Source: a virus
Virus record (IMG/VR): IMGVR_UViG_3300025115_000037
Location: 1 to 33,381 of that record
Reading direction: 5' to 3' (one strand)
Length of the DNA stretch: 33,381 nucleotides
The stretch's first letter is position 1. Each line of letters opens with the position of its first letter. The notes under the pieces are model-generated. The model saw only the letters and a program-made list of their open reading frames with translations, was not told where the DNA came from and made no database searches. A program made the position numbers and the translations under genes. Positions 3,081 through 20,733 of the stretch are shown in pieces.

Positions 3081-3263
3081 ATGCAAGCCAAGACCCTCAT
3101 CAACTTCTCGACGACAACCGAAAAGAAACTTGCCTACGCCCATGCCTGTTCCATCCTTGGCATAAGTGTCTCCGACGTCTGCCGCAAAGCCCTCGACAAT
3201 GCGGTTCTTCTTTCCCAGAAGTTCGAGACATCCGCGTCATCGAAAAAGGAGGCTGACCCATGA
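3081..3263 (+). CDS. Ribbon-helix-helix transcriptional regulator (60 aa)
   Basis: Length and pattern fit the Arc/MetJ/CopG fold: a short strand (residues 3-9, K-T-L-I-N-F-S), helix A (about 13-25), the turn L-G-I-S-V-S (26-31), then helix B (about 32-44). Such proteins dimerise and insert the paired strand into the DNA major groove at inverted repeats. It has a leaderless promoter and overlaps the next gene by ATGA, so it leads the early rightward operon. The dyad at 2827-2846 is the obvious candidate target. The basic/acidic Ser-Lys tail is probably disordered. Fold assignment is by pattern only. Confidence 0.7.
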   Translation: MQAKTLINFSTTTEKKLAYAHACSILGISVSDVCRKALDNAVLLSQKFETSASSKKEADP

Positions 3264-3913
3264 TTACCCTCGACATAGAGACCACCGGCTTGTATCCCTC
3301 TCCTCCCGAAGGCTCCCTGGAAACGGAGGACTTCATCGTCGCCATCGGCGTGATGGACGAGTTCGGCATGTCAATCTTCACCGTTCCCTTCGAGGGCTTC
3401 AAGACCTCCCTCGAAGCGGCGGAAATCAATATCCTCCGCACCTTCTCCAACTGGTTCTTCGACAATCCAATCGGACAAGAGGAGCCGATTCTTCTCACCT
3501 ACAACGGCTTCGAGTTCGACATTCCGTTCATCTCGACGAAGCTCCTCAAATACTCCAAGGACAACCCGCAATTCTCCGCGTGCGCCAAGCACCTCGTCGA
3601 CACGCGCAACATCGACCTCATCCGCTACGCGAAGTTCGCCTGCGGTCGCCGCCTCGGAAAGGAGGACGCCTGCCGCAAGCTCGCCAACCTTTACGTTCCC
3701 CGAAAGACTGAAGGTCTGTGGAACGCACGAATCTACAAGAACCCGTCGCTTCTCACGGAAAACGACCACGTGGAGATGCTCCAGCACAACGCGACCGACC
3801 TCGCGGCGACGGCTCGCCTTCACAACGTCGTTTCGCGCTTTCCCGATTACGACAGATGGAGGATGGTTGAGTTCAGGATGGAAACGGTTGAATCGGAGGA
3901 GATGAAGCCATGA
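3260..3913 (+). CDS. DEDD-family 3'-5' exonuclease (PolB-exo-like)
   Basis: Exo I is L-D-I-E-T-T-G (Asp5, Glu7), Exo II is Y-N-G-F-E-F-D (Asn82, Asp87), and Exo III is Q-H-N-A-T-D (Asp180). The Y-N-G-x-x-F-D form is typical of family B DNA polymerase proofreading domains and related stand-alone RNase H-fold exonucleases. The usual Exo III residue is Tyr three positions before Asp (DEDDy) or His four before (DEDDh, HxxxxD); here a His occupies the Tyr position (H176-x-x-x-D180). At 217 aa it is a free-standing nuclease without polymerase domain, likely acting in viral DNA repair, recombination or host DNA degradation. ATGA overlaps on both sides. Confidence 0.75.
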   Translation: MITLDIETTGLYPSPPEGSLETEDFIVAIGVMDEFGMSIFTVPFEGFKTSLEAAEINILRTFSNWFFDNPIGQEEPILLTYNGFEFDIPFISTKLLKYSKDNPQFSACAKHLVDTRNIDLIRYAKFACGRRLGKEDACRKLANLYVPRKTEGLWNARIYKNPSLLTENDHVEMLQHNATDLAATARLHNVVSRFPDYDRWRMVEFRMETVESEEMKP

Positions 3914-4179
3914 GCTGGATGCGCCGCAAGATAACCCTCGTCCTCTCCGAGAAGGAGCTTGCCGAGGGTTCCTGCAGGCGGAAGCTCACCTTCGCGAAGT
4001 TCTACCACATCGGAGACATCCGCAAGTCGGTGAGCCGCAAGACGCACAGCTCATACGGGAAAAAGGTGCGGATAGAGTCGATAGTTCCTGAGACGCGGAG
4101 GTTCATGCGCCTGTTCTTTTCCGTCATCGACGAGGGAGAACGGATAATAAGTCTGAAGCCCATTGTGCTTGGGGGGTAA
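3910..4179 (+). CDS. Hypothetical protein (89 aa)
   Basis: Not recognised. Basic, probably alpha/beta, with no Cys pairs except one Cys and no membrane segment. It starts inside the stop of the exonuclease (ATGA) and is followed two bases later by the glycosyltransferase fusion gene, so it is co-translated with them. Its codon use matches its neighbours. Confidence 0.65.
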   Translation: MSWMRRKITLVLSEKELAEGSCRRKLTFAKFYHIGDIRKSVSRKTHSSYGKKVRIESIVPETRRFMRLFFSVIDEGERIISLKPIVLGG

Positions 4180-4181
4180 GA

Positions 4182-5666
4182 ATGCCGACGATAAACGAAA
4201 TCATAGATGCTCCAGGGATACGGAAGGTTGCGCTTCTCGTCCCCATGCGCGGGAAGATAGACTCGATTTTCATGCAGACCTACCTCTCGCTTTTCATCCA
4301 TCTCCTGAAGAAGCGCGGCATCGTTGCCCAGCCCGTCTTTTCCGACATGATGCCTCTCGACAAGGCTCGCTGTTCCCTCGTGAAATCGGCAATCCTAAAC
4401 AAATCCGACTACGCGCTGTGGCTCGATTCCGACGTGGTGATAAAGGAGGCGATGTTCGACCAGCTCTGGGAAACCATCCACGAGAAGGACGGCACTCCCG
4501 ACGAGCGTTTCATCGTTTCCGGCATCTACTACGAGCGCGAGATTCCCTACGACGCCGTGATACGCCGCAAGAACGAACTCGGTCTCTACGAGAAAATCAT
4601 GCAGTTCCCTGACAAACCGTTCACCGTCGACGGCATAGGCTTCGGCATGGTTCTGATGAAGATTAAGCCGATGAAGGACGCCTTCGTCGCCACGAAGGGC
4701 TATCCCTTCCGTTGGACGGACAAGGTTTCCGAAGACCTTTTCTTCTGCGACCTTGTGACCGGAGGCGGCTCGACCGAGGACGGCAAGCCTCTTTCCTATA
4801 AAATCTGGGTCGACCCGCAGGTTCAGGTTCCCCATTACGGCTCATACGTCACCCAATGGCACTACCTCCACAACAAGCTCGACGAATACTCCGACGTGAA
4901 GGAGATTTCCAGGTATCTCAAAATCCCACTTGAGGAGTGCTACCAGCGATGCCTCGGCGGTGCGCTTGCCATGTGCAAGGAATGGCAGAAGACGTTCGGC
5001 AAGGACAGGAAGGAGGACACCATCCCAGAAGCGGAAATCCTCGACTTTTACAGGAAGACCGAAATCTACCTCTACGACCTAACCTGGTTCTGGTCCCACA
5101 ATAGAAGGCAACGTGAGGAGATTATGGGAAGATGGAAGGACTCCAAGCAAGTCCTGGACTTCGGATGCGGGATAGGCGACTACGGCTTGGCATACGCCGA
5201 AGACCACCTGGACGCCCATGTCGATTTCTACGACATCAACAAGCCGAACGTCGACTATCTCAAATACCGCATAAAGGTGCGCGAGACGCAGGGAACAATA
5301 AATCCAGGGAACTGCAAGGCTCACGACGAAGCGAGCTTCCTTGAGCGCGAGGAGCATTACGACCAGATATTATGCCTCGACTTGCTGGAACACACCAAGA
5401 ACCCGGAGGTCTACGCCTCGAAACTCAGGAGGATGCTGAAGCGCAACGGAACCCTCATCGCGGTTGTCTCTCCGAAAGGCATGTTCCAGCCGCAGCATGT
5501 CAGCGAAATCGACCTTTCCAAGTGCGGCTTCCTCCAGATAGACACATATGTGTATATACGCACCGACAGCGACACAGCCAAGAACTACGCCAAGATTGTC
5601 CAGAACGTCAAGGATTCGATGACGACCTCTCCGATGGAGAAGGTCAACGACAGGAGGGGGGATTGA
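4182..5666 (+). CDS. Glycosyltransferase-SAM methyltransferase fusion (494 aa)
   Basis: Two enzymes in one chain. Residues ~13-220 look like a GT-A glycosyltransferase: L-V-P-M-R-G near the start, L-W-L-D-S-D (79-84) as the metal/nucleotide-sugar DxD motif, V-D-G-I-G-F-G-M (149-156) and S-E-D-L-F-F (183-188), the usual acceptor/base region. After a helical linker, residues ~320-430 are a class I methyltransferase: V-L-D-F-G-C-G-I-G (324-332) binds SAM, F-Y-D-I-N (349-353) has the acidic ribose contact, and L-D-L-L-E-H (399-404) follows. A GGGGGG ribosome site precedes the ATG. The pair would add a sugar and methylate it or a nearby group; the acceptor is unknown (DNA, virion glycoprotein or host surface). 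Confidence 0.75.
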   Translation: MPTINEIIDAPGIRKVALLVPMRGKIDSIFMQTYLSLFIHLLKKRGIVAQPVFSDMMPLDKARCSLVKSAILNKSDYALWLDSDVVIKEAMFDQLWETIHEKDGTPDERFIVSGIYYEREIPYDAVIRRKNELGLYEKIMQFPDKPFTVDGIGFGMVLMKIKPMKDAFVATKGYPFRWTDKVSEDLFFCDLVTGGGSTEDGKPLSYKIWVDPQVQVPHYGSYVTQWHYLHNKLDEYSDVKEISRYLKIPLEECYQRCLGGALAMCKEWQKTFGKDRKEDTIPEAEILDFYRKTEIYLYDLTWFWSHNRRQREEIMGRWKDSKQVLDFGCGIGDYGLAYAEDHLDAHVDFYDINKPNVDYLKYRIKVRETQGTINPGNCKAHDEASFLEREEHYDQILCLDLLEHTKNPEVYASKLRRMLKRNGTLIAVVSPKGMFQPQHVSEIDLSKCGFLQIDTYVYIRTDSDTAKNYAKIVQNVKDSMTTSPMEKVNDRRGD

Positions 5667-5668
5667 AC

Positions 5669-6091
5669 ATGGAACATGAAGAACGGTTATTCAAGCCATT
5701 GGTGAACTTCGCAGCGTTCACCAAGCTTGAGATGCAGATATTCATGTTTCTGTTTTATTGCATGAGTTCAAATGCTTGGGTAGTCTATCATAGGATTGTG
5801 CAAGCGCATTATCCTAAAAGACCAAAAACAAAACTCACCTTCGAATCTGAGCTAAAGCGAGACGGTATCGAAAAAATCGCATCCAGACTTCGTGAACGGG
5901 GAAAGAGAATCCCAGCATTCACAACCATCCAATCGACTCTGAACAATCTCCACGACGCCGGAATCCTCTCCAAAAGAAAGGTGAGTGGGAAGATTCACTA
6001 TTTTATCTCAGACAATATAATTTCTCAGATAAACACATACAACCTGCTTAATGTCCCAATAAACTATGGGACTTTGGGGGATTTTATATGA
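5669..6091 (+). CDS. Winged-helix-like regulator (140 aa)
   Basis: The open frame extends further upstream, but the ATG at 5669 follows a strong GGAGGGGG site and starts right after the fusion gene. Residues ~85-113 (T-I-Q-S-T-L-N-N-L-H-D-A-G-I-L then a K-I-H-Y-F hairpin) have the recognition-helix-plus-wing pattern of winged-helix DNA-binding proteins. The N-terminal half is hydrophobic and helical (residues 17-32), perhaps for dimerisation. It may switch early to late transcription, given its place before the packaging genes. AT-richer than its neighbours, which hints at separate acquisition. Confidence 0.6.
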   Translation: MEHEERLFKPLVNFAAFTKLEMQIFMFLFYCMSSNAWVVYHRIVQAHYPKRPKTKLTFESELKRDGIEKIASRLRERGKRIPAFTTIQSTLNNLHDAGILSKRKVSGKIHYFISDNIISQINTYNLLNVPINYGTLGDFI

Positions 6092-6258
6092 AAATGGAAA
6101 ACGTAAGGAGATGCCTTGTAAGGGAAGCCAGGCGCATAGCCAAAACCGAGAAGGGAACGCGGTTTTCCCACGTCAACGGGGTGAGCAGGGCTAACAAGCT
6201 GAAATCAGGAGAATATGAAATCGGCTTCGAAGTCGTGTTCATCGTCGAGAAGTGCTGA
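6088..6258 (+). CDS. Small basic hypothetical protein (56 aa)
   Basis: A 56-codon frame beginning MKMENVRRC starts within the stop of the regulator gene (ATGA) and ends two bases before the ATG of the putative small terminase. The first 40 residues are strongly basic (many Arg/Lys), then a hydrophobic beta-like end (E-V-V-F-I-V). Not recognised; size and charge would suit a nucleic-acid-binding accessory. The exact fit between neighbours argues that it is real. Confidence 0.6.
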   Translation: MKMENVRRCLVREARRIAKTEKGTRFSHVNGVSRANKLKSGEYEIGFEVVFIVEKC

Positions 6259-6260
6259 AC

Positions 6261-6758
6261 ATGCCGATATACCAGGGCAAGGCATACAAGCAGTTCCTGG
6301 TCGACCGCTACGCCATGGGCTTCGACCCAGTGGCTATCGCCCAGGAATTCGAAAAGACCATGGGCGTCCCCATAACCGAGCAGGAGATAGAGCAGATTCT
6401 CAAGGGCTGCGAGAACGAAATCCGCGCACGCGAGGACGAGCTTTACAAGGAGCTGAAATCCCAGAACGTCATCTCCGCGCTTCTCTCGATACGGGACGAG
6501 CTGGGCGAGGTCGCCTCCCTTGCCAAGGCGGAGAAGGACTACAAGACCTTCGCCCAGCTTTCAAACTCCTCGATGAAATCCATCGAGGTGATAATCTCCA
6601 TGACCGAGAAGTTCCGCGACCGCGAGAAGACCAAGCACATATCGGCAGTCCAGAACAACTACTACGCCATAGAGGTTCTCGTGAAGGACGGCTTGATAGA
6701 GGTCAAGGACGAGGAGAAGCTGAAGAAGATTTTCGCAGGTGATTCCGATGGTCAGTAA
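6261..6758 (+). CDS. terS: Putative terminase small subunit (165 aa)
   Basis: Called by position and architecture. It lies upstream of the large terminase. Its N-terminal ~60 residues are helical with a helix-turn-helix-like stretch (G-F-D-P-V-A-I-A-Q-E-F-E, residues ~20-31) suited to recognising packaging DNA. The rest forms long helices (55-125) for oligomerisation, and the acidic C-terminus could contact the large subunit. In-frame GTG/CTG codons upstream are possible, but the ATG giving M-P-I-Y is the natural start. The HNH gene begins before its stop. Sequence similarity to known TerS families cannot be claimed by eye. Confidence 0.6.
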   Translation: MPIYQGKAYKQFLVDRYAMGFDPVAIAQEFEKTMGVPITEQEIEQILKGCENEIRAREDELYKELKSQNVISALLSIRDELGEVASLAKAEKDYKTFAQLSNSSMKSIEVIISMTEKFRDREKTKHISAVQNNYYAIEVLVKDGLIEVKDEEKLKKIFAGDSDGQ

Positions 6759-7074
6759 GCCGAGGCGCTCTTCAAAATGGAAATCCTTCCGCGACAGGTT
6801 CCTGAAAGGAAAGGTCTGCGCGATATGCGGCGGAACGAAAGACCTTCAGGCTCATCACATCATTCCATTCTGCATGGCTCCTGAGAAGGAACTTGACGAG
6901 AAGAACGTCATCCCGTTGTGCGAGGGAAACCGATACTGCAACTGCCATCTCGTGTTCGGTCACGGCTTCAGCTACGACGACTACAATCCACATATCAGGA
7001 AATCGGCGCGCTACATGACGTGGCTCAGGAAATGCCGACAGAGGATAAAGGTGAAAAAATCGCAGACCTTATAG
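6748..7074 (+). CDS. HNH endonuclease (108 aa)
   Basis: C-x-x-C (Cys24, Cys27), H-H-I-I-P (36-40), N-V-I-P-L-C (53-58) and C-N-C-H-L-V-F (64-70) give the His-Asn-His catalytic core on a zinc-bound beta-beta-alpha fold. HNH proteins beside terminase genes in HK97-like phages assist terminase cutting at DNA ends, the likely role here; a free-standing homing nuclease is the alternative. The ATG at 6748 has an AGGTGA site; a GTG at 6739 is also in frame. It overlaps both terminase genes, which favours a packaging role. Confidence 0.8.
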   Translation: MVSKPRRSSKWKSFRDRFLKGKVCAICGGTKDLQAHHIIPFCMAPEKELDEKNVIPLCEGNRYCNCHLVFGHGFSYDDYNPHIRKSARYMTWLRKCRQRIKVKKSQTL

Positions 7075-8450
7075 AGTCCCTCACCAAGCCCAGCTTCGAA
7101 TACTTCTGCAAGGTTGTTCTCCGGCAGAAACTCGGAGCCATGCACAAGGAATGGATACGCGCCGCACTCGACCCTTCGAAGCATCTCGTTATAATGTCGG
7201 CTCGCGGGCATTTCAAGACGACGATACTTTCGGTTGCCTTCCCCCTCTGGATAATGATGAGGGAGAAAAAACCGAAGATGATAGTCATCCTCTCAGCGAC
7301 GCTGGAACAGTCGACGGAGATAATGGGATTGATGAAAAGGCAGATAGAGGAGAACGAGATTCTCAGGGAGGTGCTTTATCCTGAAAACATACACGAGACC
7401 AAATGGAGCGAAACCCAAATCCGAACAAGGAACGGGCATCGAGTATTATGCCTTCCTTTCGGAGACACCGTTCGTGGGAAGCACCCCGACTACTGCATCT
7501 GTGACGACGTTCTCAAAGCGGAAGTTTCGAGCGATGTCGAGGATGCGAAGCGGGTCTTTTACGGCATTGTGTATCCCATTGTCCAGGCAAGACGAGGCAA
7601 GGTTATCGTCGTCGGAACACCCGTATCTTATATCGACCTCCTTAATGACCTATCGTCTAAGCCGAATTTCACCTTTCTCAAGTATCCCGCCGTGGTATTC
7701 AACGAAGACGGAAGCTGGAAGGAGCCTCAGTTTCCTGAACATTTTGATTTGGAACAGTTGCGCTCGATACGTGACACCATGCCTTCACATCTCTGGGCTA
7801 GGGAGTATCTTTGTAACCCTGCCTCCAGCGACACGTCGATGTTCCCGCAAGGCGTCCTCGACAAGGCGACCTCGCTTTACGAAAAGACGAGAACCGCAAT
7901 CGACACCGCGAAGGCGAACGGGGTTGGAATTAGACGGGTCATCGGTTGTGATATAGCCGTGTCGCAGGGTGCGAGGGCTGACTGGAGCGTCTTCACCGTC
8001 CTGGACTACCTTGAAGGTCATCCCATCCTCCTGCGCGACCAGATAAGAAAGCACCTCACTGCAGAAAACAACGTCGAGGAAATCCGCCACCTCAACGAGT
8101 TCCACAAGCCAGCAAAAATCCTCATAGAGAAGACAGGCGTCGGCTGGGGGGTTGCAGAAGCCTGCCTCAAAGACCCAGTTCTCAAGCCGGTCTCCCTCGA
8201 CTTCGACACCAAGATGGCGAGCCGCGAGAAAATCCTATCGCGCCTTGAGGTGACCATGCGCAACGGAAACCTCGCAATCCCAAAGAACGACGTCCTTCTT
8301 TCAGAACTCGGACAATGGGCATACATGAAGATGAAGGATGGGCGCATGGCATACCATTCGCTTGGTGAGCATGATGATTGCGTAATATCCCTTGCAATAG
8401 CTTTGGAAGCCGCTTCAACACGCTCTTTCGCAAGTGTCTCCATCGTCTAA
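7032..8450 (+). CDS. terL: Terminase large subunit (472 aa)
   Basis: The ATPase-nuclease motor that translocates and cuts viral DNA at the portal. The N-terminal ATPase has a variant Walker A, S-A-R-G-H-F-K-T-T (56-64), a Walker B Y-C-I-C-D-D (154-159) and a coupling segment V-V-G-T-P (193-197). The C-terminal RNase H-like nuclease shows I-G-C-D (304-307), A-D-W-S (316-319) and a late D-D-C (448-450) as metal-binding acids. The frame is open further upstream, but the ATG at 7032 inside the HNH gene is preferred because an upstream extension would overlap that gene heavily; the ribosome site (CAGGAA) is modest. Length is normal for the family. Confidence 0.9.
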   Translation: MPTEDKGEKIADLIESLTKPSFEYFCKVVLRQKLGAMHKEWIRAALDPSKHLVIMSARGHFKTTILSVAFPLWIMMREKKPKMIVILSATLEQSTEIMGLMKRQIEENEILREVLYPENIHETKWSETQIRTRNGHRVLCLPFGDTVRGKHPDYCICDDVLKAEVSSDVEDAKRVFYGIVYPIVQARRGKVIVVGTPVSYIDLLNDLSSKPNFTFLKYPAVVFNEDGSWKEPQFPEHFDLEQLRSIRDTMPSHLWAREYLCNPASSDTSMFPQGVLDKATSLYEKTRTAIDTAKANGVGIRRVIGCDIAVSQGARADWSVFTVLDYLEGHPILLRDQIRKHLTAENNVEEIRHLNEFHKPAKILIEKTGVGWGVAEACLKDPVLKPVSLDFDTKMASREKILSRLEVTMRNGNLAIPKNDVLLSELGQWAYMKMKDGRMAYHSLGEHDDCVISLAIALEAASTRSFASVSIV

Positions 8451-8493
8451 GCCCAAGTCATTCAAGACACTCGCGTCGCCTGATTAACTACTC

Positions 8494-8501
8494 TTATATA
8501 G
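8494..8501 (+). promoter_or_regulatory. TATA box before portal (late promoter)
   Basis: TTATATAG is centred ~28 bp before the portal ATG. No ribosome site lies in the intervening AT-rich stretch, so a leaderless or very short-leader late transcript for the head genes is predicted. A CATATAT word closer to the ATG could be an initiator-proximal element. Confidence 0.5.
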
Positions 8502-8524
8502 GAGTATGCTCATATATCAATGCA

Positions 8525-9964
8525 ATGGCTAGCGCAAGAAAGGTGCCAATCTCGGCACGTCTCATTGATGACTACGTTCCAACGGGTCAACCCCAACCGA
8601 CCCCAGCAGTGAACAACGTCATAAGAGACAGCCTATATGACTGGTTCTATAAGATGCCCGAAGTGCGAGCCATCGTGTGCGGAATGACGGTTGATGTTTT
8701 CGGAGACGGCTATGGCATCGACGGAGACAGGATGCGCCAGCAGAAGACCAACCGCTTCCTCCGCCAGAACAACTTCAACCGATACGGAAAATCGGTATTG
8801 CGCGACGCGCTCATCTCAGGAGACGGCTATCTCGGAAAGGCATCCCTTACCGAATCGCAGGTTCTTGAGGCGATGGACGCCATATATTCAGACGTGTTCC
8901 ACAAGTCAGCCGACCAGATTACCAAACGGATGCTTCTTAGCAAGATAACCTCGATAAAACCGGACATCTACTCCCCCCGCGTCCTTTTCCCCCTCATGTC
9001 GCGAAGCATCAAAATCAATTACGACATGCACGGCAAGGTGACCGGATACACTCAGCGTGTCAAGAACAACATGACCGCGTTCGCAACAACCAATTATCCT
9101 GACGATGACAATCCATCAACATACACCTATGGAACGATGGGCGCGTCTGGGCAGATTGAGTTCCTTCCTGAGGAGGTAATCCACTTCCCATACGAGCCGA
9201 TAGGCGACCAGATTTACGGAACCTCGCCCCTCCAGACGGCAATCTACGACGTGATTTCACTCTGGTATGCGAAGACATACGGAGGTCTCTTTTTCCAGAA
9301 CGACGCAACGCCGTCATTCATCTTCAGCCTTCCAGACGATTCCCCAGATTCCGAGAACTACAAGAAGTTCTGCGACGTTCTCGACAAGCACAGGCGGAAC
9401 CCGCACAGGCATCTCGTCACAACCGGAAACGTTGAAATCAACAAGGTGGCATCGCTCACGAAAGACCTCGAATTTTCTAATTTCATCGACAAGTTCACAC
9501 AGCGCGTGATGCTCGCCTTCGGCGCAACCGCAAGGTTCAATCATCTGTTTTCAAACAAGCCAGACACCCCAGTCTCGATGGAGAGCTACTACAAGACCAT
9601 AAACAGCATCCAGACAGAGTATGAGGACATACTCAACACGGAGCTTTTCGACCACTTCGGAGTCGAATTCTACTTCAATCGCGTCTACAAGCGCGATGAG
9701 ACGAGAGAGGCGGATATTGCCGTTAAGCTGACGAACCTGGTATGGACAGTCAATGAAGCCAGGGAATACCTCGGATTCAAGCCTTTGCCGAATCCGATGT
9801 TCGACGAACTCACTTCTGCCCAGCAGGATGAGTTCACTGGGCAAAGGAAGAAGAAGGAGGAGGTCGCCTCGGCTGACGCAAGGACAGAGCAGAACGCCGT
9901 TGCCATGACCTCGCGCAATCAGATGAAGGGCGACAAGCCGGTGAATGGTGATAAAAATGATTAG
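8525..9964 (+). CDS. Portal protein (479 aa)
   Basis: The dodecameric ring at the capsid vertex through which DNA enters. Family features include the early segment with P-E-V-R-A-I (around residue 44) and V-F-G-D-G-Y-G, the G-D-G-Y segment, E-V-I-H-F-P-Y-E-P-I-G-D-Q-I-Y-G-T-S-P (about 218-236), the classic portal clip/stem signature, and a helical T-Q-R-V-M-L-A-F-G region near residue 330. The C-terminal 50 residues are charged and flexible. The ATG giving M-A-S-A-R-K lies just after the predicted TATA box; the upstream extension of the frame overlaps terL and looks non-coding. It overlaps the start of the next gene by 8 bp. Confidence 0.88.
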   Translation: MASARKVPISARLIDDYVPTGQPQPTPAVNNVIRDSLYDWFYKMPEVRAIVCGMTVDVFGDGYGIDGDRMRQQKTNRFLRQNNFNRYGKSVLRDALISGDGYLGKASLTESQVLEAMDAIYSDVFHKSADQITKRMLLSKITSIKPDIYSPRVLFPLMSRSIKINYDMHGKVTGYTQRVKNNMTAFATTNYPDDDNPSTYTYGTMGASGQIEFLPEEVIHFPYEPIGDQIYGTSPLQTAIYDVISLWYAKTYGGLFFQNDATPSFIFSLPDDSPDSENYKKFCDVLDKHRRNPHRHLVTTGNVEINKVASLTKDLEFSNFIDKFTQRVMLAFGATARFNHLFSNKPDTPVSMESYYKTINSIQTEYEDILNTELFDHFGVEFYFNRVYKRDETREADIAVKLTNLVWTVNEAREYLGFKPLPNPMFDELTSAQQDEFTGQRKKKEEVASADARTEQNAVAMTSRNQMKGDKPVNGDKND

Positions 9965-11537
9965 GGAACTTTTCGCATGGAGCCTTGCGGTTCTCATGCT
10001 CGTCGGAATGGGCAACGCCGTCCTGGTGGAGAAGACTCTCACCTCGGCGAACACAATCTTTTCGCTGAACACGTTCAATGCCGGTCAGCAGACCGGAACG
10101 AACACGTTCGTAGTCCTCAACAGCACGAACGCTTCAGACACGCAAAGCCTGGTAATCTATTACATGGATGCCAACTTCACCAAGAAGACCGCGAACTATA
10201 CTCTCACAGGGCAGACCGCGATAAACACAAGCGGCTACAACTCCCAATATCTAGTGAACAACTCCACGTCGGCAGGCAATCTGACGCTCACCCTCTCGAA
10301 CTGGTCTCTCTCATCCGCCGGATTCGGAGTGAACAAATCCTGCCCCAACTACACCAACGTCTACTATGTCTATTATCCTGCCGCGAACTACACCACCAAC
10401 ATGTCGGCATTCACAGCCACAAGCGATTTAACCCAGACGGATGACGGAACCTTCGCGACGCTCACCGGAATAACCCTCAGCAGGTTCTCATTCATAAACA
10501 ACACATATCCGACAGCCCTCTATTACTACTTCAATCCTGCCCTCAACCTTACGGGTGAAATCAACTCGACGAACCTTGTCCTTCCAGATGGGCAGTTCTT
10601 CGCGTCAACCGATGCCTTCGTGGCAACTTCGAGCATGCCCTTTGCCGTGACTGTGAGACCAAACGACAACCGCACCTACAACCTGACAGGCAACGTCACT
10701 TCGGCATCGAACGCAACCGCGCTCACGAACGCCAACTCAACAAGGACGCTTATCCTCAACCAGCCAAGAAAGAGGTCTGAATACACAGCCACAATGACGG
10801 TCACCGCCCAATATAAGTCGACTGTGACGACCAGCGTGAAGATAGGCGACACCGTTCTGGGACCGCTTACCGGAACCTCGACGACATTCACGTTCGACGA
10901 GTCGCTTCTCGCACCTACCCTGGTTGTAGGATTCTCGTCAAACGGTGCTGGAACGAACATCACGAATATCGTGGTGAACTACGTTCCATCAGGCTGGTAT
11001 GCGATACCTTCCAACAGGCTTGTCCAGAACATGCGGGTTGTGGCTGATGTCACGAAGCTGTCCTATTGCAGGAACGCTTCCCTCACTTCGGCTTCCGCAA
11101 CCAACAACGTGGTGACCAACAAGTTCACCAAGCAGACAACCAAGCTCTCAGGAAAGGGAGACTTCGCATACATCTACGACGCGGCTCTTTCAAGTGCTGC
11201 GATTGGGGTGGTATCAATCAGGTCCAATGCAAACGTCCTCCTATACAACATTACTGCTGGAAACACCAAACCAGCATACAACGGAGAGCTTTGCACGATA
11301 CCTAACGGATGCACCCTGAAGAACGTCATCTACGGTGGCGACACGAACCAGAGATTCTGGGCGAATGTGACCTCCATAGCCGGAGTGAACCGCGTGATAT
11401 ATTCCGCGTTCAACCTTGGCTACACCACGAACCAATACCAGATTCCGATGAAATGGGGGATTGGCGAGAGGCTTCAAATCCTCAGCCGCTCCGCAACAGC
11501 AGGCGGAAACGTGAGCATATACTACGAGGTGGGCTGA
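9957..11537 (+). CDS. Secreted, sequon-rich protein inside the head gene cluster (526 aa)
   Basis: Not recognised. Residues 1-20 are a clear signal peptide: basic M-I-R, hydrophobic core W-S-L-A-V-L-M-L-V-G-M-G, then N-A as a likely cleavage site. The mature protein is beta-rich, Thr/Ser/Asn-rich, lacks a C-terminal membrane anchor, and has about 25 N-x-S/T sequons, so export and N-glycosylation are predicted. Start: GGTGAT before the ATG at 9957 (an ATG at 9945 is also in frame). It is translationally linked to portal (8-bp overlap) and protease (TGATG), so it is made late with head proteins. A virion decoration protein or a host-surface protein are both possible. Confidence 0.75.
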   Translation: MIRELFAWSLAVLMLVGMGNAVLVEKTLTSANTIFSLNTFNAGQQTGTNTFVVLNSTNASDTQSLVIYYMDANFTKKTANYTLTGQTAINTSGYNSQYLVNNSTSAGNLTLTLSNWSLSSAGFGVNKSCPNYTNVYYVYYPAANYTTNMSAFTATSDLTQTDDGTFATLTGITLSRFSFINNTYPTALYYYFNPALNLTGEINSTNLVLPDGQFFASTDAFVATSSMPFAVTVRPNDNRTYNLTGNVTSASNATALTNANSTRTLILNQPRKRSEYTATMTVTAQYKSTVTTSVKIGDTVLGPLTGTSTTFTFDESLLAPTLVVGFSSNGAGTNITNIVVNYVPSGWYAIPSNRLVQNMRVVADVTKLSYCRNASLTSASATNNVVTNKFTKQTTKLSGKGDFAYIYDAALSSAAIGVVSIRSNANVLLYNITAGNTKPAYNGELCTIPNGCTLKNVIYGGDTNQRFWANVTSIAGVNRVIYSAFNLGYTTNQYQIPMKWGIGERLQILSRSATAGGNVSIYYEVG

Positions 11538-12418
11538 TGGAGATTCCAGAGATAGTCAATCTATGGGCGCCGATTTCCAAGATAGACGAGGAAAAGCGCA
11601 TGGTGTTCGGATACGCCACAACGCCAACCAAGGACAGCCAGGAGGAGGTAGTCGACCTGGAGGCTTCCTTCGAGGCGGTTGATGAGTGGAAGAAGTGGGC
11701 GAACATCAAGGAAATGCACCGTGCAGAGACGGCTGTCGGCATAGCTCCAATCATAGAGAAGCATGTCGGAGTGGGCGTCTATATAGGTGCTGAGATTGTG
11801 GACGACCAGGCATGGAGGAAATGCCAGAAGAAGGTCTACAAGGGCTTCTCCATAGGTGGGCGTGTAATCGAGAAGGAAGGGAACAAGATAAAGAAATACC
11901 GGCTGCTTGAGGTTTCCCTGGTCGACAGACCGGCTAACCCAGATGCAGTATTCATGGTCGCAAAGCGTGACGACACAGACGCCTCTGCAACGGAGGCGCA
12001 AGGAGGGGTTTCAGTGGAAAAGACCGAGACCGTCTCCAATCCCGTTGCTGGGGAAGCGACTGGAACGCCGCCCGTAGCCGTAACAGAGGCGCCGGTGACC
12101 AAGCAGGAGGAAAAGATTGAGGCTAAGCCTCTCGAAAAGCCTCCCGAGGAAACAGTCACTATGACGAAGGCGGAGTTCGAGAAGCTTCAAAGCCAGCTTA
12201 AGGATTTGGAGATGAAGAAGAAACTTGAGGACATGGCGCAGGAAGCCATACTCAAGGCAGTTGAAAAGCTGGAGCCGAAAATAAAGAAGGCATACGAGGA
12301 GGTCAAGCCCAAGACCGATGAGGAAAAAAGGGCAGAAGAAGCAGAGATGATGAGGAAAATGAGTGTTGGTGAGCTGACGGCAGCGATGCTGAAACGCGCC
12401 ACCAGCTCGGAGGAATAA
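11537..12418 (+). CDS. XkdF-type prohead protease fused to a scaffold-like tail (293 aa)
   Basis: Residues ~1-145 match the herpesvirus-assemblin-like prohead protease fold of the XkdF type: E-M-H-R (His61), Y-K-G-F-S-I-G-G (Ser105) and L-L-E-V-S-L-V-D-R-P-A-N-P-D-A (123-137), which supply the catalytic His, Ser and a third acid. Residues ~165-293 are Glu/Lys-rich coiled coil, like the delta/scaffold region needed to shape the prohead before digestion. It therefore probably serves as both scaffold and maturation protease for the capsid protein encoded next. The ATG overlaps the preceding stop (TGATG) with GAGGTGG before it. Confidence 0.82.
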   Translation: MEIPEIVNLWAPISKIDEEKRMVFGYATTPTKDSQEEVVDLEASFEAVDEWKKWANIKEMHRAETAVGIAPIIEKHVGVGVYIGAEIVDDQAWRKCQKKVYKGFSIGGRVIEKEGNKIKKYRLLEVSLVDRPANPDAVFMVAKRDDTDASATEAQGGVSVEKTETVSNPVAGEATGTPPVAVTEAPVTKQEEKIEAKPLEKPPEETVTMTKAEFEKLQSQLKDLEMKKKLEDMAQEAILKAVEKLEPKIKKAYEEVKPKTDEEKRAEEAEMMRKMSVGELTAAMLKRATSSEE

Positions 12419-12428
12419 GGTGATAGCT

Positions 12429-13355
12429 ATGGCGAACCCAGAGAGTTTGCTCAAGGCTCTGAACGAGAACACCAACACCCAAGGAGGGTATCTCGTCCCA
12501 GAGATTTGGGCTTCAAAGATATACGACCTGATACTGGCGAAATCGACAGCCATCCAGCTTTGTGAGAACATCACAATGACCACGGACACGCTGTATTTCC
12601 CCAAGGTCACGGCGGCAAGCACAGCCTACTTTACCGAGGAGGCTGGCACAATAACCCAATCCCAGCCGACCTTCGGTCAGCTTGTTCTGCACCCGAAGAA
12701 GGTTGCAGCCCTCTCCAGGCTCTCAAGCGAGGTCATGGAGGACAGCAACCCGAGCGTCATGGACGTGGTGGTCAACCGCCTTGCGGAGGACATAGCCCTC
12801 AAAGTGGACTATGAAATCTACAACGGAACCACATCCACAGGAGGCTTCAACGGGATGAGGGACACCACCGCAGACACGGCAATCCTTACTGTGGCTGTTG
12901 GAGGCGAGATTACCACGGACAAGCTGTCTGATGCCATCGCGGCGATGCGCACCCAGAACATCTACCCGACAGACCTGATAATCCACCCGAAGCTCACGAA
13001 CAAGCTCAGGAAGCTCAAGACCACAACGAACGGCTACGAGCCTCTCCTGAACATCAACACGTTCGGTGCTGCTCCGCTTGGAAGCGGGATAATCGGGAAG
13101 ATTTGGGGCATCAATGTCATCGAGACGACCCAGCTTCCGACCGCCCTCTCAGGTGGAACCGCCACAACGGCAACCGAGGCACTCCTCGTGTCCAGGGGCA
13201 AGTGCGGAATATTCGCCAACCGCAGGGAACTTCGCCTCAACAAGTTCTACCTGATAGACACCGACGACTGGAAAGTCCAGAGCAACATGAGATGCGCCTT
13301 TGCGGTGAATTACTCGAAGGCAATCTGTGTCCTCCAGGACATCCAGTGCGAGTAA
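12429..13355 (+). CDS. HK97-fold major capsid protein (308 aa)
   Basis: Family pattern: helical/Asn-rich N-terminal arm, then G-G-Y-L-V-P-E (about 19-25) typical of mature HK97-like capsid starts, P-K-V-T-A (E-loop strand), K-V-A-A-L-S-R-L-S-S-E-V-M-E-D (spine helix), D-Y-E-I-Y-N-G-T, and a C-terminal P-domain with G-I-F-A-N-R-R-E-L-R-L. It is shorter than HK97 gp5, as it lacks the ~100-residue delta region. That fits scaffolding by the protease tail encoded just upstream. An AAGGTGATAGCT site selects the ATG at 12429 over a GTG three codons earlier. Confidence 0.88.
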   Translation: MANPESLLKALNENTNTQGGYLVPEIWASKIYDLILAKSTAIQLCENITMTTDTLYFPKVTAASTAYFTEEAGTITQSQPTFGQLVLHPKKVAALSRLSSEVMEDSNPSVMDVVVNRLAEDIALKVDYEIYNGTTSTGGFNGMRDTTADTAILTVAVGGEITTDKLSDAIAAMRTQNIYPTDLIIHPKLTNKLRKLKTTTNGYEPLLNINTFGAAPLGSGIIGKIWGINVIETTQLPTALSGGTATTATEALLVSRGKCGIFANRRELRLNKFYLIDTDDWKVQSNMRCAFAVNYSKAICVLQDIQCE

Positions 13356-14247: not shown

Positions 14248-14544
14248 ATGAAAAAAATTGTGTTCGCAATCGCCGCGATAATGTTCCTTTTCGGATGCGT
14301 CTACAAGACGCCAATGATGACTGGGAATACCGTAATGGTCGAGCTATGCACAACCCACATGATTGAGAAGGAGATGCCGTGCGATTACACAGCTACACTC
14401 GGCGACCAAATCTGGTTCGTGAGGCAGAACTGCACAATGCCATATCCTGAGGATTCGTGCCATACGGAGCCTCTGGGAGACAGGATATGCACGGAAGATG
14501 GCTACCTGGAAGGAGATATTGAGACTAGATGCCAGGTGGTCTGA
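14248..14544 (+). CDS. Lipoprotein-like small Cys-rich secreted protein (98 aa)
   Basis: Signal peptide M-K-K-I-V-F-A-I-A-A-I-M-F-L-F-G then Cys17, a lipobox-like L-F-G-C. After it come six cysteines (E-L-C, M-P-C, Q-N-C, D-S-C, R-I-C, T-R-C), enough for three disulphides in an extracellular domain, with one N-C-T sequon. Not otherwise recognised. GTGAT precedes the ATG. Its stop codon abuts the TTG start of the giant secreted protein, so the two are probably made together; it could be its membrane partner or anchor. Confidence 0.65.
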   Translation: MKKIVFAIAAIMFLFGCVYKTPMMTGNTVMVELCTTHMIEKEMPCDYTATLGDQIWFVRQNCTMPYPEDSCHTEPLGDRICTEDGYLEGDIETRCQVV

Positions 14545-17500
14545 TTGAAAACGCTCCCAATCCTGTTGTTTCTTCTGGTGGGGATGGCTGGACTTTCTTA
14601 TAGCATAGATGCAGGAGACTGCTCTTGGACTTCGGCTCTGACAACAAACAATACTTACTGGACTATTCCAAGAAATCAGACTGTTACAGAGAATTACAAT
14701 GGGATATGTTATAGCTTCGGTGGAACCAATTCTACAGTAGATTGTCAAGGTTATACTATTAAATGTGTTGGAGATTGTAGTTGGGGATTTGAATTCTGGG
14801 TAGGTAAGGAACCAAATAACTTTACATTTAAGAACTGTAAGTTTGAAGGATTCACTGGATTTAAATATGGAATAGTTGTTTCAGGAGCTAACCTCACCTT
14901 CATGAACAGTTCGCTGATGGGGGTATATTCGTATGCAATGACCGACGTCTTATTTGTGAACACAAGTGATTCTAAGAGCATCGAGCTTACTACTGATAGT
15001 AGAATTAGGATACGGAATTCAAATATAACCAATATGGTTACGGGTTATTGTGGAAACAAAGTATCCAACATAACGATAGAAAATTCTAATGTAGGTTATC
15101 TTAATGTGTGTGGGAACATCCTTTCGATTGTCAATTCAACTTTTAATTCATCAAGCAAACTATTGACATCCGAAATCTCAAATGTCACAATCATCAATTC
15201 TACCCTTTATTCATCAAATACTACTTTAGCCGATATAGGAAGCAATTCGACAATTACAAACACCAAGATTATTGGAAGTGGAAGCAACACTGGTCTAAGG
15301 GTCATAGGAACAAACAACAGATTTTATCTAAACAACTTCACCAACTTGGGGGTATATATCAACGATACGAATGGAAGCAATTTCTATAACGCCACCTACG
15401 ATAGCAAAAATCAAGGCAACATCTATGCTAATGTTCTGAACGGAAGCGTTGGGGTGTATGGCTCAGTTTCATCATCTGTCCCGGGTCTGTATATCGGTAG
15501 TGGCGGAACAGGCTACCCATACAACCACTCAACATCCGGAGGCAAATTCGTCTGCAACTTTGCTGGTTGTGGCGACTATGCGCCATTGACAAACCGATTG
15601 CCGCCAGGAAACCTCACAGTCAACGCCACAATCGGCGGCACTGCAATCGGCAACAATAGCACATTCACTCCTCCTGCAAACCTCACGATAAACGCAACTG
15701 CAAGCACAGGCTATTATTTCATCAACTGGACAGTCACAACGGGAAATGCCACCGTAAATAATATAACCAATCCCAACACATTCGTGACCGTCTACAACAC
15801 CACGCGTGCAAACGTGCAAGCGAACTTCGGGAAATACGGGAACCTCACCGTGAATTCTACCGTCGGCGGTTCGGCAATCGGCAACAACTCTACGTTCATC
15901 CCTCCTGCAAACCTCACGATAAACGCAACTGCAAGCGCAGGCTATTCCTTCGTCAACTGGTCAGTCACCGAAGGGAATGCAACCGTTAGTAATGTCACAA
16001 ACCCCAACACCTTCATCACGGTCTACAACACCACGCGTGCCAATGTGCAGGCGAGATTCCAAAGTTCTTATGCCCCTCCGAATATCACCAACATAACCTC
16101 CTACGTCACCACCAAATACGGCAACGCAACCTGCAACGTCACGGTTGTCGGGAACGCCTCCGCCTACAACGTCTCGTATGAATGGTATTTCAACGGAGTG
16201 AACCAGACTTCTCTTGCCGGAACCTATGTTGGGGCAGCCAACAACACCAACACCCAGATAAGCCTCCTGACCTCAGGCAACCTTTCCTTCCCATTGAACG
16301 TTTCCTGCAGGGCGAGAGCCTATGACGGCACCAACTATTCCAACTGGTCGTCAAGCGGAAACGCATCAATCCAACCAATAGGGTGCGGTTCATATTCCCA
16401 GAGCATAGACCTTGATGCGAACATACAGGTCAACGGTTCCACATGCATCAACGTGGTAGGTTCCAACGTGGTGGTGGATTGCAAGGGCTTTTCGATAACA
16501 GGCAACAACACCACATCCACCTACGGGATTTATTCAAATCAGGTCAACACCACTATAAGGAACTGTATCGTCTCAACTTTCTACAACGGAATATACATGG
16601 ACACTTCATCACAGAACGGTTCGCTTCTCAACAATACCGTTGACGTATCATTCAGTGCGGCGGCAGCCTATTCCATCTACATGCGAGGAAACCGAACAAC
16701 ACTCAGCAACAACATAGCCTACAATTCCAACGTTTCGTCGTATGCGGCATACATTACAGGGAGCTTCAATACCGTCCAGCAACTCGATGCCGTTCCTAGA
16801 ACTGGAGGAACCTACGGAATATATCTATCCGGAACGAACAATATAATGGAGAACTTCCAATATTGCAACTCGTCATACTGTGTCTTTCTTGCTGGCAACA
16901 ATAATCTGTTAAGGAACTTCAATGTCATGTCGGGAAGCCGCTCCCTTGCTTTGATTTACTCAGGAACGAATCACACTGTAGAAAACAGCAACGTTAGCGG
17001 GTCTTCTTCCGGACTCTATATATATAGCACGTCAAAGGTGATTGTGCGAAACAACAGGATAACTTGCACCTCATCGACAAATGGAGCCATACTATACAGG
17101 ACTGTTTCAGGAGCAGAGATATACGGCAACCGGATAAATTCTACAATAGAGCCAGTTTTTAAGGCAGCCGGAAACTCTTTCATCTCAAGCGGATTCCAGA
17201 TATATAACAACACCTTCATTTCAGGGGATAACTACACAAGCATATGGTTCATCATGAACTCAACGAACCACACCCTATACTGGAACAATTTCACAGGAAC
17301 GACGCCCTATTGGATAGTGGATGAGAATGCCTCAAGCGGAAGCAGATTCAACACCACCGAAGGAAATATCTATCAGGACGTGATGAATAAGACCGTGATG
17401 ATAGCCGGTTCTGCAAACTCAAGCTATGCCCCAGGTCTCATGATAGGCGACAGGGGAGCAGGATACCCATACACAGCAAAGATGGTCAATGCGGTTGATT

Positions 17501-20500
17501 ATGCTCCACTCACAACGGAGAGCCCCCCTACTACATGGGTTGTGGCTTCGGTTGGGAACAAATACAGCAACGCCACATGCAACGTCACCTCAATAGACAG
17601 CGACAACAGAACGATGAATGTAACCTATGAATGGTATTTCAATGGAAACAATCAGACTTCCTTGGCTGGAACCTACCTCAATCTCCCATCCAACACCCCA
17701 ACCATAATTTCAACACTCACCCCAGGCAATCTATCGTTCCCCCTCAACCTCTCGTGCCGTGTGAGGACATACAACGGATTCTCCTATTCGAATTGGTCAG
17801 AAGGTAACACGTCAGTCTCCCCTGTAGGATGTGGAAGCTACAATCAATCCATATTAGAACTAGATACGAACCTCCAGATAAACGACTCGACCTGCATAAA
17901 CATAATCGGGGCTAATACTGCAGTAGATTGCAAGAGCTTTATACTGACAGGAAACAACGCATCCGCAACTTATGGTATCTATTCAGCCCAAAACAACACC
18001 ACTATAAGGAACTGTGTAATCCGCGACTTCGCCTCGGCAATCGCAACCACGAGCGCAATCACAGGGCTTTCAATAAACAACGTGACCGGCATCGGAAGCC
18101 TCAACAACACCAACATATTGAGCATCGCTTCGGCAGTTTCCCCAAGAATAACCAACTCCCTTTTCAACCACACCAACGCAAGCGCAACCGCCGGAGGCGC
18201 AATCACAATCACCGGAAGCGGAGCCTTCGTGGAGAACGTCACGGCATCCACCGTGAACGTAGGGACATTCGTCACATCCTCAACCGACGCGGTATTGAAC
18301 AATGTGACGGTTTACATGACCGCCACAGGCAGATATGCCTTGACCGTGAGTGGGGCAAGAACCAATGTCACCAATTCAGCAATCATAGGCGGAGGAAGCT
18401 CGTATGGCTTTAGCATAGGGGGAACAGACATTCTCGTAAGCAACACCTCGGTAAGCGGAACATCAATAGCGATTGTCTTTGGAAGTGCCCATAGGGCAAT
18501 CATAGCCAACAACAACTTTTCGGCGGCACTTGGGACAGGAACGTTCTACTTCAATGCGGACATAAACAATACGACGGTAAGAAACAATCTAATAACGACA
18601 GGCGCATCGGGAGTGAACATTTACGTCGCCACAAATAGGAATGTAGACAGATTAATCTACGTCAACAACACCGCACAGGTTGGAGTTAGAGGATTAATCG
18701 TCGCATCAAACGGCATCCTCAACAACTCAATCATAGCGAACAGCACATTCAACCAAACGGCGGCAAGCTCAACTCCACTCATGACGCTCGGCGGGACGAA
18801 TACCTCACGGATTTCCATGAACAATACCTTCATCAACAACACGTTCTCAAGCACGTCGTCAACACTGGTCTTCGTAAACAACTCCGCGAGGAACACTTTC
18901 TATTGGAACAACTTCAGCAGGACAAGCGGGCTGTATGTGAACGACACCGATGGCACTTCGCTATACAATTTATCCGAAGGCAACCTGTGGCAGAATGTCC
19001 TCAACGGTTCGGTGGTGATGTATGGGTCTGTTCCCTCACAGTATGGCGCGGGGTTGTATATCTCGACGGTTGGAATACCATACAACAACTCGACAAGCCA
19101 GGGCAAGTTCCTGTGTGGGTTCGAAGGCTGCGGAGACTACGCTCCATTGAGCTATCCAAGATACGCCAATCTTTCCATAAACGCTTCGCCCCAAGACTAT
19201 GGAAACTATACTGGAAACGGAACCTACGTAGTTCCAACAACCGTGAATATCACGGCAACCCCGAATGTCACCAAACTGTTCTCCAACTGGACAAGCGAGG
19301 GGAACTGTTCAATAGCCAACACGACAAGCAACGAAACCAACGTGTCGCTTTATTCGAACTGCAACGTCACAGCCAATTTCATCAACTACACGGTAACCGA
19401 GGATTGTCGTGGGATAAGTAGAGACACAGACCTGCTTGGAGATACTTATGCGACAGCAGGAGGCATATGTTACAGTTTCGAGGCTTCGGACATATACCTT
19501 GATTGTCACGGTTACTCGATATACGGGGTGAATGCAAGCGAGTCTATTGGAATAAATGTTGATAATAACAATGTGGTAATCCGTAATTGTAACATATATA
19601 ACATGAGCATCGGAATCTTCAATAATCGTGGTTTTTATCAAACTTACCAGGACAATGGGATTTATTCTGAGGAAGGAAAGGCGGGGATAAATACTGGTGG
19701 TGGGTCGTTGGTCATTACTGGAAATGAAATAATACTCGGAACTGGTGCTGGCATCAATTTCCAGGATAATGTGCTTACTTTCGTCATAGCCAACAATACG
19801 ATAATCTCAACCTTAGATAACGCCAAGCCTAGGCTTTATATGCAATCTGGTGCTGGGGATGGGGTGATAACTGGAAACATTTTCGACACATACGAACATG
19901 ACGATGACGCCATATCTGGAGACAGTTCGACGCTTTTGGATATAGTCAACAATACCATTAATGGAAGGATAAACTTCATTACCACCACATACACAAATAT
20001 AAACGAAAACAATATCTCAACAGGAGCAGTTGATTTCGCATTGTTCCTTGTAGATTCAAGCGATATGCATTTCTACAATAACAACGTATCTTCAAACGGA
20101 AGTTATGTGTATAACAGCGGTGCGGATTTGAAATTCTGCAACGGAGATGGAAATGTGTGGGCGCCCGTGATGAATGGGACCTGGGACGTGAAGGGAAATG
20201 ACCTTTCAACGCATTTCCCTGGCTTATATTATGGTTCCGGAGGAGACGACTATCCTCTGTCTGAGCAAACCACCGGCGGGGCTTTCAACGGGACGATGAA
20301 GGATTCTTGCGCCATAACTCCTTTCTTGGGAGAACCTGGGACGTTCATATGGATTTACAACGGTTCTTCCTGGGTGGAATATAATGAGAGTTCCAAGATA
20401 AACTTCAGGTGTTCCAACCCATTTCCGTCATACTGTCAGCCACAGAATCAGGATAACGAGACATCCAAGCCTATATTTAGGAATCAGAACAACGGAACCG

Positions 20501-20733
20501 TGATACGCGATTGGCAAGCCATCAAGACCAATGTTACGTGGGAAACAGCAAATCTTACCTGCGGCACTTCTAGGTCTCCTACGAGTAACATAAATCTCAC
20601 CATGGAATATAAGAACTATTCGTTGACTCCTATTTCTTCAGGACTGAACGAGTCTCTATATTGTTGGTTCTATATAGAAAGTGTCCCTGCAGGATTCGCC
20701 AGGGACTTCGCTATAGATTTCACTGGAGGATGA
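14545..20733 (+). CDS. Giant secreted modular beta-helix glycoprotein (2062 aa)
   Basis: Start: a TTG with GGTGGTC before it; residues 1-20 form a signal peptide (L-L-F-L-L-V-G-M-A-G-L-S-Y-S). The rest is built from repeated modules: right-handed parallel beta-helix blocks of NosD type, each opening with a C...C-x-(S/N)...V-D-C-(K/Q)-G-F/Y strand pattern. Each block is closed by a shared element beginning G-N-(I/L)-(Y/W) with V-(L/M)-N-(G/K), and the first three end in D-Y-A-P-L. Between blocks lie InlB-like repeats (two near-identical, one diverged) and two Ig-like Y-E-W-Y-F-N-G modules. N-x-S/T sequons occur about every 12-16 residues. No C-terminal membrane anchor. Parts near both ends are AT-richer than the middle. 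Likely an adhesin, receptor-binding spike or host-surface coat. Confidence 0.85.
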   Translation: MKTLPILLFLLVGMAGLSYSIDAGDCSWTSALTTNNTYWTIPRNQTVTENYNGICYSFGGTNSTVDCQGYTIKCVGDCSWGFEFWVGKEPNNFTFKNCKFEGFTGFKYGIVVSGANLTFMNSSLMGVYSYAMTDVLFVNTSDSKSIELTTDSRIRIRNSNITNMVTGYCGNKVSNITIENSNVGYLNVCGNILSIVNSTFNSSSKLLTSEISNVTIINSTLYSSNTTLADIGSNSTITNTKIIGSGSNTGLRVIGTNNRFYLNNFTNLGVYINDTNGSNFYNATYDSKNQGNIYANVLNGSVGVYGSVSSSVPGLYIGSGGTGYPYNHSTSGGKFVCNFAGCGDYAPLTNRLPPGNLTVNATIGGTAIGNNSTFTPPANLTINATASTGYYFINWTVTTGNATVNNITNPNTFVTVYNTTRANVQANFGKYGNLTVNSTVGGSAIGNNSTFIPPANLTINATASAGYSFVNWSVTEGNATVSNVTNPNTFITVYNTTRANVQARFQSSYAPPNITNITSYVTTKYGNATCNVTVVGNASAYNVSYEWYFNGVNQTSLAGTYVGAANNTNTQISLLTSGNLSFPLNVSCRARAYDGTNYSNWSSSGNASIQPIGCGSYSQSIDLDANIQVNGSTCINVVGSNVVVDCKGFSITGNNTTSTYGIYSNQVNTTIRNCIVSTFYNGIYMDTSSQNGSLLNNTVDVSFSAAAAYSIYMRGNRTTLSNNIAYNSNVSSYAAYITGSFNTVQQLDAVPRTGGTYGIYLSGTNNIMENFQYCNSSYCVFLAGNNNLLRNFNVMSGSRSLALIYSGTNHTVENSNVSGSSSGLYIYSTSKVIVRNNRITCTSSTNGAILYRTVSGAEIYGNRINSTIEPVFKAAGNSFISSGFQIYNNTFISGDNYTSIWFIMNSTNHTLYWNNFTGTTPYWIVDENASSGSRFNTTEGNIYQDVMNKTVMIAGSANSSYAPGLMIGDRGAGYPYTAKMVNAVDYAPLTTESPPTTWVVASVGNKYSNATCNVTSIDSDNRTMNVTYEWYFNGNNQTSLAGTYLNLPSNTPTIISTLTPGNLSFPLNLSCRVRTYNGFSYSNWSEGNTSVSPVGCGSYNQSILELDTNLQINDSTCINIIGANTAVDCKSFILTGNNASATYGIYSAQNNTTIRNCVIRDFASAIATTSAITGLSINNVTGIGSLNNTNILSIASAVSPRITNSLFNHTNASATAGGAITITGSGAFVENVTASTVNVGTFVTSSTDAVLNNVTVYMTATGRYALTVSGARTNVTNSAIIGGGSSYGFSIGGTDILVSNTSVSGTSIAIVFGSAHRAIIANNNFSAALGTGTFYFNADINNTTVRNNLITTGASGVNIYVATNRNVDRLIYVNNTAQVGVRGLIVASNGILNNSIIANSTFNQTAASSTPLMTLGGTNTSRISMNNTFINNTFSSTSSTLVFVNNSARNTFYWNNFSRTSGLYVNDTDGTSLYNLSEGNLWQNVLNGSVVMYGSVPSQYGAGLYISTVGIPYNNSTSQGKFLCGFEGCGDYAPLSYPRYANLSINASPQDYGNYTGNGTYVVPTTVNITATPNVTKLFSNWTSEGNCSIANTTSNETNVSLYSNCNVTANFINYTVTEDCRGISRDTDLLGDTYATAGGICYSFEASDIYLDCHGYSIYGVNASESIGINVDNNNVVIRNCNIYNMSIGIFNNRGFYQTYQDNGIYSEEGKAGINTGGGSLVITGNEIILGTGAGINFQDNVLTFVIANNTIISTLDNAKPRLYMQSGAGDGVITGNIFDTYEHDDDAISGDSSTLLDIVNNTINGRINFITTTYTNINENNISTGAVDFALFLVDSSDMHFYNNNVSSNGSYVYNSGADLKFCNGDGNVWAPVMNGTWDVKGNDLSTHFPGLYYGSGGDDYPLSEQTTGGAFNGTMKDSCAITPFLGEPGTFIWIYNGSSWVEYNESSKINFRCSNPFPSYCQPQNQDNETSKPIFRNQNNGTVIRDWQAIKTNVTWETANLTCGTSRSPTSNINLTMEYKNYSLTPISSGLNESLYCWFYIESVPAGFARDFAIDFTGG
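15610..16071 (+). repeat. Tandem 231-bp repeat (two InlB-like modules)
   Basis: Unit one starts at 15610 and unit two at 15841, a 231-bp period (77 residues). Both encode N-L-T-V-N-(A/S)-T, G-N-N-S-T-F, P-P-A-N-L-T-I-N-A-T and V-Y-N-T-T-R-A-N-V-Q-A. DNA identity is high over long stretches, for example around CCTCCTGCAAACCTCACGAT, indicating a recent internal duplication. A diverged third unit is near 19160-19390. Confidence 0.8.

Follow-up and report, generated by a model that had tools for sequence, protein, structure and literature searches.

A group of uncultured tailed viruses, probably archaeal, keeps amid its capsid genes a gene for what is very probably a secreted, sugar-coated protein. 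The gene lies in a window of 33,381 nt, the whole stretch of DNA analysed here (IMG/VR virus record IMGVR_UViG_3300025115_000037), where ORF 9957-11537 encodes a 526-aa product, referred to below as X. To our knowledge, no tailed-virus scheme has the gene for a secreted N-glycoprotein inside the capsid operon, and nothing in the literature searched describes exported proteins rich in sequons from the head operons of tailed viruses. What, then, might such a protein do? The best explanation, still a tentative one, is that X works at the surface of infected cells.

A gene held between portal and protease

The head operon runs from TerL (~7065-8450) through the portal, X and an S78/XkdF-like protease to the HK97 major capsid protein (Table 1); small structural proteins follow 3' of the major capsid gene, and after them a 98-aa protein whose signal is of the lipoprotein type, a 2062-aa exported beta-helix protein, a protein made of repeats and the head-tail adaptor. 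The first-pass annotation, made from the sequence alone, had described X as locked between portal and prohead protease by overlaps on both sides, and this is what is found: its start overlaps the portal stop by 8 nt, while its stop and the protease start have 1 nt in common (TGATG). The Shine-Dalgarno motif lies 5' of the ATG at 9957, with identical spacing in two relatives.

Relatives were found via portal and family alignments, a single-sequence search with X having given the identical contig only, and some of the relative contigs are short. The gene after the portal is visible in ten IMG/VR contigs (L002, L004, L005, L007, L008, L009, L010, L011, L012 and L014), which yield nine distinct members, as L002 is identical to the window and L014 almost identical to L008. 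In 10/10 of these contigs, the first gene after the portal encodes a signal-peptide homologue of X, and in most of them the protease follows directly. L005 has a 951-aa exported beta-helix protein between X and protease, and in L007 a 427-aa exported protein comes next after X. Three of the contigs (L008, L009 and L011) come from IMG 3300025698 and 3300035698, which are Antarctic Ace Lake metagenomes (PMC8542988). In L015, a more distant contig with a portal 37% identical, the position of X (11572-12654) is occupied by a 360-aa fibre-like protein without a signal peptide; its C-terminus has a similar ending, the pattern LTIVYE.

An artefact of the reading frame was rejected, since nine divergent homologues keep the frame and pN is below pS. 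The divergence is nevertheless large. The alignment of all nine members is highly variable, and identity to the X of the window spans 27-41% across the family; for the closer relatives, identity to the window is 76-78% in the portal and 84-87% in the capsid protein. Among distinct members, pN is 0.30-0.54 for X versus 0.10-0.36 for the portal, with synonymous sites near saturation. Such fast divergence, together with the gain and loss of domains described below, is as expected of a surface contact protein. The X of the window matched 0 families above the cut-off in Pfam and PHROGs, tblastn of X and of its short core against phages gave nothing credible and no tower or turret match, and a profile search of PDB sequences produced a chance-level match only.

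Table 1. Features of the head module in the window and the evidence for each
Feature	Position	Strand	Evidence
Portal protein	8522..9964	+	Phage_portal E 1.6e-19
X, predicted exported, sequon-rich protein, 526 aa	9957..11537	+	ORF; conserved Shine-Dalgarno GGTGAT; nine distinct homologues at the same locus
X, predicted signal peptide, about residues 1-21	9957..10019	+	n/h/c pattern, AxA-like site; 9/9 members
X, N-module, about residues 22-94: first strands of beta domain 1 (GTNT..LNST..SD..YM..GTT)	10020..10238	+	conserved in nine members; AF2 short-form model
X, variable sequon-rich insert, about residues 95-397, flanked by conserved Cys129 and Cys371	10239..11147	+	alignment, cysteines
X, C-module, about residues 398-526: rest of domain 1 and the whole of beta domain 2; Cys446/Cys452 invariant	11148..11534	+	alignments; AF2 short-form model
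S78/XkdF-like prohead protease, scaffold-like C-terminus	11537..12418	+	phrog_9427 head maturation protease E 2.5e-19
HK97-fold major capsid protein	12429..13355	+	Phage_capsid E 9.2e-34
98-aa protein, lipoprotein-type signal (MKKIVFAIAAIMFLFGC, FLFGC)	14248..14544	+	sequence; hydrophobicity KD 3.1
2062-aa predicted exported beta-helix / InlB-B-repeat protein	14545..20733	+	145 sequons vs 62±6 expected

Predicted export and N-glycosylation

The N-terminus of X reads MIRELFAWSLAVLMLVGMGNA, then V, with an h-region of KD 2.4 and an AxA-like site near residue 21. Signal peptides were called by hydrophobicity and the -3,-1 rule, and by this measure a hydrophobic n/h/c N-terminus is found in all nine distinct members (11-residue KD 2.4-3.1, small residues at -1/-3); its residues diverge, and the segment is kept. 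The export signal on which the first-pass annotation had staked its reading is therefore present in every locus homologue, and none of these is an ordinary cytoplasmic capsid protein, all being signal-peptide-bearing and sequon-enriched. Its view that X is without a membrane anchor holds as well: no C-terminal anchor was found, the last 35 residues reaching KD 0.49 at most, and the only later hydrophobic stretch, residues 403-421 (KD 1.5), is a predicted conserved beta strand. Within the family, Cys446 and Cys452 never vary, and in the insert-bearing members a further conserved Cys lies towards either end of the insert; the X of the window has exactly four Cys, at precisely those conserved positions. 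These conserved cysteines fit folding outside the cytoplasm.

The count of N-X-S/T sequons in X, put at about 25 in the first reading, is 26, against 13.2±3.0 expected from composition shuffles (z 4.3), and sequons exceed the shuffle expectation in every member of the family (z 2.1 to 7.6). Ser or Thr stands at +2 after 26 of the 56 Asn residues of X, compared with a 24% background (binomial p 4e-4). Across the family this holds for 52.6% of 418 cases on a background of 25.8% (binomial p about 2e-31, with related sequences counted as independent), the values at the other offsets after Asn being 24% (+1), 20% (+3), 29% (+4) and 25% (+5).

This bias at +2, a mark of selection for sequons, is confined to signal-peptide proteins. 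It recurs in the 2062-aa neighbour (0.516) and in other signal-peptide proteins of the relatives (0.505), and is absent from the portal, capsid, protease and tail proteins of these viruses; the non-exported proteins of the window have a +2 frequency of 0.164 versus a background of 0.156, i.e., no bias. When ORFs of at least 150 aa were scanned in the window, in L003 and L005 and in the early regions L022 and L023, every sequon-enriched ORF turned out to be a signal-peptide protein of the head module. An artefact of composition was rejected, because L007_695 and L015_362, which are rich in Asn, Ser and Thr and carry no signal peptide, show little +2 bias (0.33 vs 0.25 background).

An ORF scan of a further eleven tailed-virus records, all but one archaeal (BJ1, psiM2, HSTV-1, PhiCh1 (50 kb), HFTV1, HCTV-2 (50 kb), HRTV-29, HRTV-4, HSTV-2 (50 kb), BLv36 and one environmental Caudoviricetes record), found no comparable protein and returned one antisense artefact only. 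Haloarchaeal virus proteins are acidic and have few Asn. Since the controls are mostly haloarchaeal, with Asn-poor proteins, this contrast is weaker than that within the viruses, which is the main evidence; the sequons of X mark a glycosylation potential, not occupancy.

With a signal peptide in 9/9 locus homologues and sequon enrichment in all of them, Sec export of X followed by N-glycosylation is a well-supported prediction. General N-X-S/T glycosylation is an archaeal trait and is not common in bacteria, and for this reason the host is likely to be archaeal. Capsid- and portal-based scans of genome contigs found no provirus.

Modular architecture and exported neighbours

The minimal form of X has no insert and measures 225 aa in L005 and 223 aa in L007; in the longer forms the insert occupies one loop of the first beta domain. 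Because the AF2 model of the 526-aa protein was poor (pLDDT 57), a short form was modelled with the N- and C-modules as separate rows, and this gave two beta domains (pLDDT 81.5). As modelled, the core of X comprises two beta domains, to which the variable insert is added.

Searched against BFVD with Foldseek, the short form found its best matches, over the whole core, in uncharacterised proteins of uncultured phages (E 2e-9, TMq 0.58). Among PDB structures (VIA), XepA of PBSX (6i56) came first (Z 10.9, 96 residues, rmsd 2.4); the two are 12% identical, with no sequence relation detected, and the fold is a common beta sandwich. The match to one HFTV1 turret chain is weak (Z 7.8) and within the generic beta-sandwich range, as GOLD, C1q and other beta sandwiches match the core at Z 7-10. 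Foldseek/PDB matches to Cry toxins, PHM and CBM22 were judged to be generic beta-sandwich noise. For residues 245-346 of the insert, taken from the low-confidence full-length model, the VIA list is led by GH86, BcsB, GH2 and CBM35/36 (Z 7-9), and one family member matches BetaGal_ABD2 (E 1e-3); as a lead only, this segment may be a CBM/GH2-like sugar-binding jelly roll.

Lipoprotein-type signals, as in the 98-aa protein of the window, are also found on structural-module proteins of L004 (6949-7845, FLFGC) and L005 (9575-12415, LLLCGC). The 951-aa beta-helix protein of L005 combines the latter signal with the C-module of X, which was recognised at its C-terminus by a profile match (E 1.8e-18). 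A lipid-anchored partner fits the cell membrane and not a lipid-free tailed virion, and the presence of the C-module in an operon neighbour with a lipoprotein signal favours a complex on the surface of the infected cell. As for other neighbours, the 2062-aa protein has a TTG start and is the richest in sequons of all the proteins of the window, and the 427-aa protein of L007 has, by eye, a C-module-like ending.

Infected-cell surface or virion

The first-pass annotation had left a choice between a new virion coat protein added outside the cell and a late host-surface protein. The export and N-glycosylation that both readings share are borne out as predictions; between the two, the neighbours with lipoprotein-type signals tilt the balance to the host surface, and the virion half is kept as a rival, possible if not probable, by the head-operon position and by the parallel of the HSTV-1 tower. 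We therefore infer a location on the cell surface. X would be made late from the head operon and exported through Sec; its signal peptide would be removed, and outside the membrane it would be N-glycosylated and probably disulfide-bonded. The small two-domain beta core would bear, in a loop of domain 1, a variable domain that probably binds a ligand or a glycan, and X would work at the cell surface, probably together with its exported, sequon-rich neighbours in the operon, i.e., the beta-helix proteins with lipoprotein signals. There, we conjecture, it masks or competes for a surface receptor, thus limiting superinfection and the re-adsorption of progeny to debris. T5 Llp provides a functional precedent, as it is encoded by a virus, exported and active at the receptor (PMC9586334). 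Superinfection-exclusion lipoproteins of this type resemble X in being exported virus proteins, and X has neighbours with lipoprotein-type signals, but X is larger, modular, probably N-glycosylated and encoded in the head operon; the two are likened by function, not by sequence. Two points count against the cell-surface reading: in the relatives seen, the X gene never lies outside the head operon, where a superinfection-exclusion protein need not sit, and there is no enzyme or receptor homology, the fold matches being generic beta sandwiches.

That constant position, immediately behind the portal gene in each of the nine distinct members, is what most invites the thought that X belongs to the virion, as a tower, turret or decoration glycoprotein that is exported, waits in the envelope space and docks through its core on capsids or necks at lysis, to give a sugar-coated particle with an aid to attachment. 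We regard this main rival as the less likely of the two, although it has parallels. In HSTV-1, the gene annotated as "tower" (gp12, NC_021471) is, like that of X, directly upstream of the head maturation protease and the major capsid protein, and its product reads as a beta helix, as does the 951-aa exported protein next to X in L005. The HFTV1 turret (TBP gp30 / THP gp31) is likewise a surface protein among structural genes, and carries a proposed glycan-binding domain (PMC12494034); to this can be added the matches of the X core to uncultured-phage proteins and, weakly, to one turret chain, as well as the glycoprotein staining of HRTV-DL1 virions taken up below. However, capsids of the HK97 type are built in the cytoplasm, to which a Sec substrate does not come back, so that an exported X could join the capsid only at or after lysis. 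Unlike X, the HSTV-1 gp12, for which no homology to X was detected, is a cytoplasm-made virion part with no signal peptide and 6 sequons versus 7.8 expected; gp30 and gp31 of HFTV1, with genes after those for tail completion, are also without signal peptide and sequon excess. X thus shares with the tower and turret proteins the place in the head module, and departs from them in that they are made without export. Unrelated beta sandwiches match X as well as the turret chain does, and the lipoprotein-type signals on some partners speak against the virion too. The spikes of pleolipoviruses such as HRPV-1 and HFPV-1 are, as predicted for X, exported and N-glycosylated archaeal virus proteins, but they sit in a membrane-enveloped budding virion, whereas the virus of X has terminase, portal and HK97 capsid genes.

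Other readings are less probable. An uncleaved N-terminal segment would leave X anchored in the envelope, as an assembly platform or adhesin, and not freed; a hydrophobic segment can indeed persist as an anchor even when small residues occupy -1/-3, but cleavage-site-like residues come right after the h-region in all members, which makes this improbable. It is quite improbable, too, that X is exported in order to bring about lysis or disrupt the envelope, weakening the surface layer at a late stage of infection. The thought comes from XepA, the best fold match, an exported prophage protein of the PBSX lytic cassette, which contains a C2-like domain and shows cytotoxicity in plaque assays (PMC6834076); yet the beta-sandwich fold is common, X sits among head genes and not in a lysis cassette, and a heavy sequon load and a variable insert are unexpected for a membrane disruptor. 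Finally, X might be a cytoplasmic virion protein, rich in Asn, Ser and Thr, with an N-terminus that merely resembles a signal peptide, as the non-exported fibre-like protein in the same position of L015 might suggest; this is scarcely credible, given that the +2 sequon bias is absent in window proteins without a signal peptide and strong in every group of proteins that have one.

The X family is a candidate for virus remodelling of an archaeal cell surface, and it also offers a concrete gene for asking how N-glycans could come to be on a particle assembled in the cytoplasm. N-glycans are added outside the membrane, which makes their presence on a tailed virion puzzling. HRTV-DL1 virions are reported to show glycoprotein-stained bands, though tailed virions exit by lysis (PMC10384203). 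One conceivable answer, which we consider rather doubtful, is an outside-in glyco-decoration, in which a secreted coat glycosylated by the host docks on cytoplasm-built capsids only at lysis; were it true, lipid-free tailed virions would thereby be coated with N-glycans and equipped with a variable lectin domain.

Some minor observations concern other genes of these viruses. The protease at 11537-12418 consists of its domain and an Ala/Pro/Glu-rich, coiled-coil-like C-terminus that may act as a scaffold, and the protease of L010 has an additional N-terminal extension. Before the head-tail adaptor lie repeat proteins (20738-21322 in the window, 16657-17502 in L005) with the short repeats ESIYLSETMRR / SEAFAKSIRFAGSSEAAAF. 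Upstream of the terminase, the product of window 4182-5666 (L007 1-1366) has a C-terminal methyltransferase domain and an N-terminal part like uncharacterised cyanophage proteins, glycosyltransferase-like by eye; it may have a part in glycan or DNA modification. Lastly, L022 (contig G001, a 43.7-kb relative) encodes at 2500-9112 a Ku-domain protein, an ATP-dependent DNA ligase and a MoxR/CobT-VWA pair, possibly a virus end-joining set.
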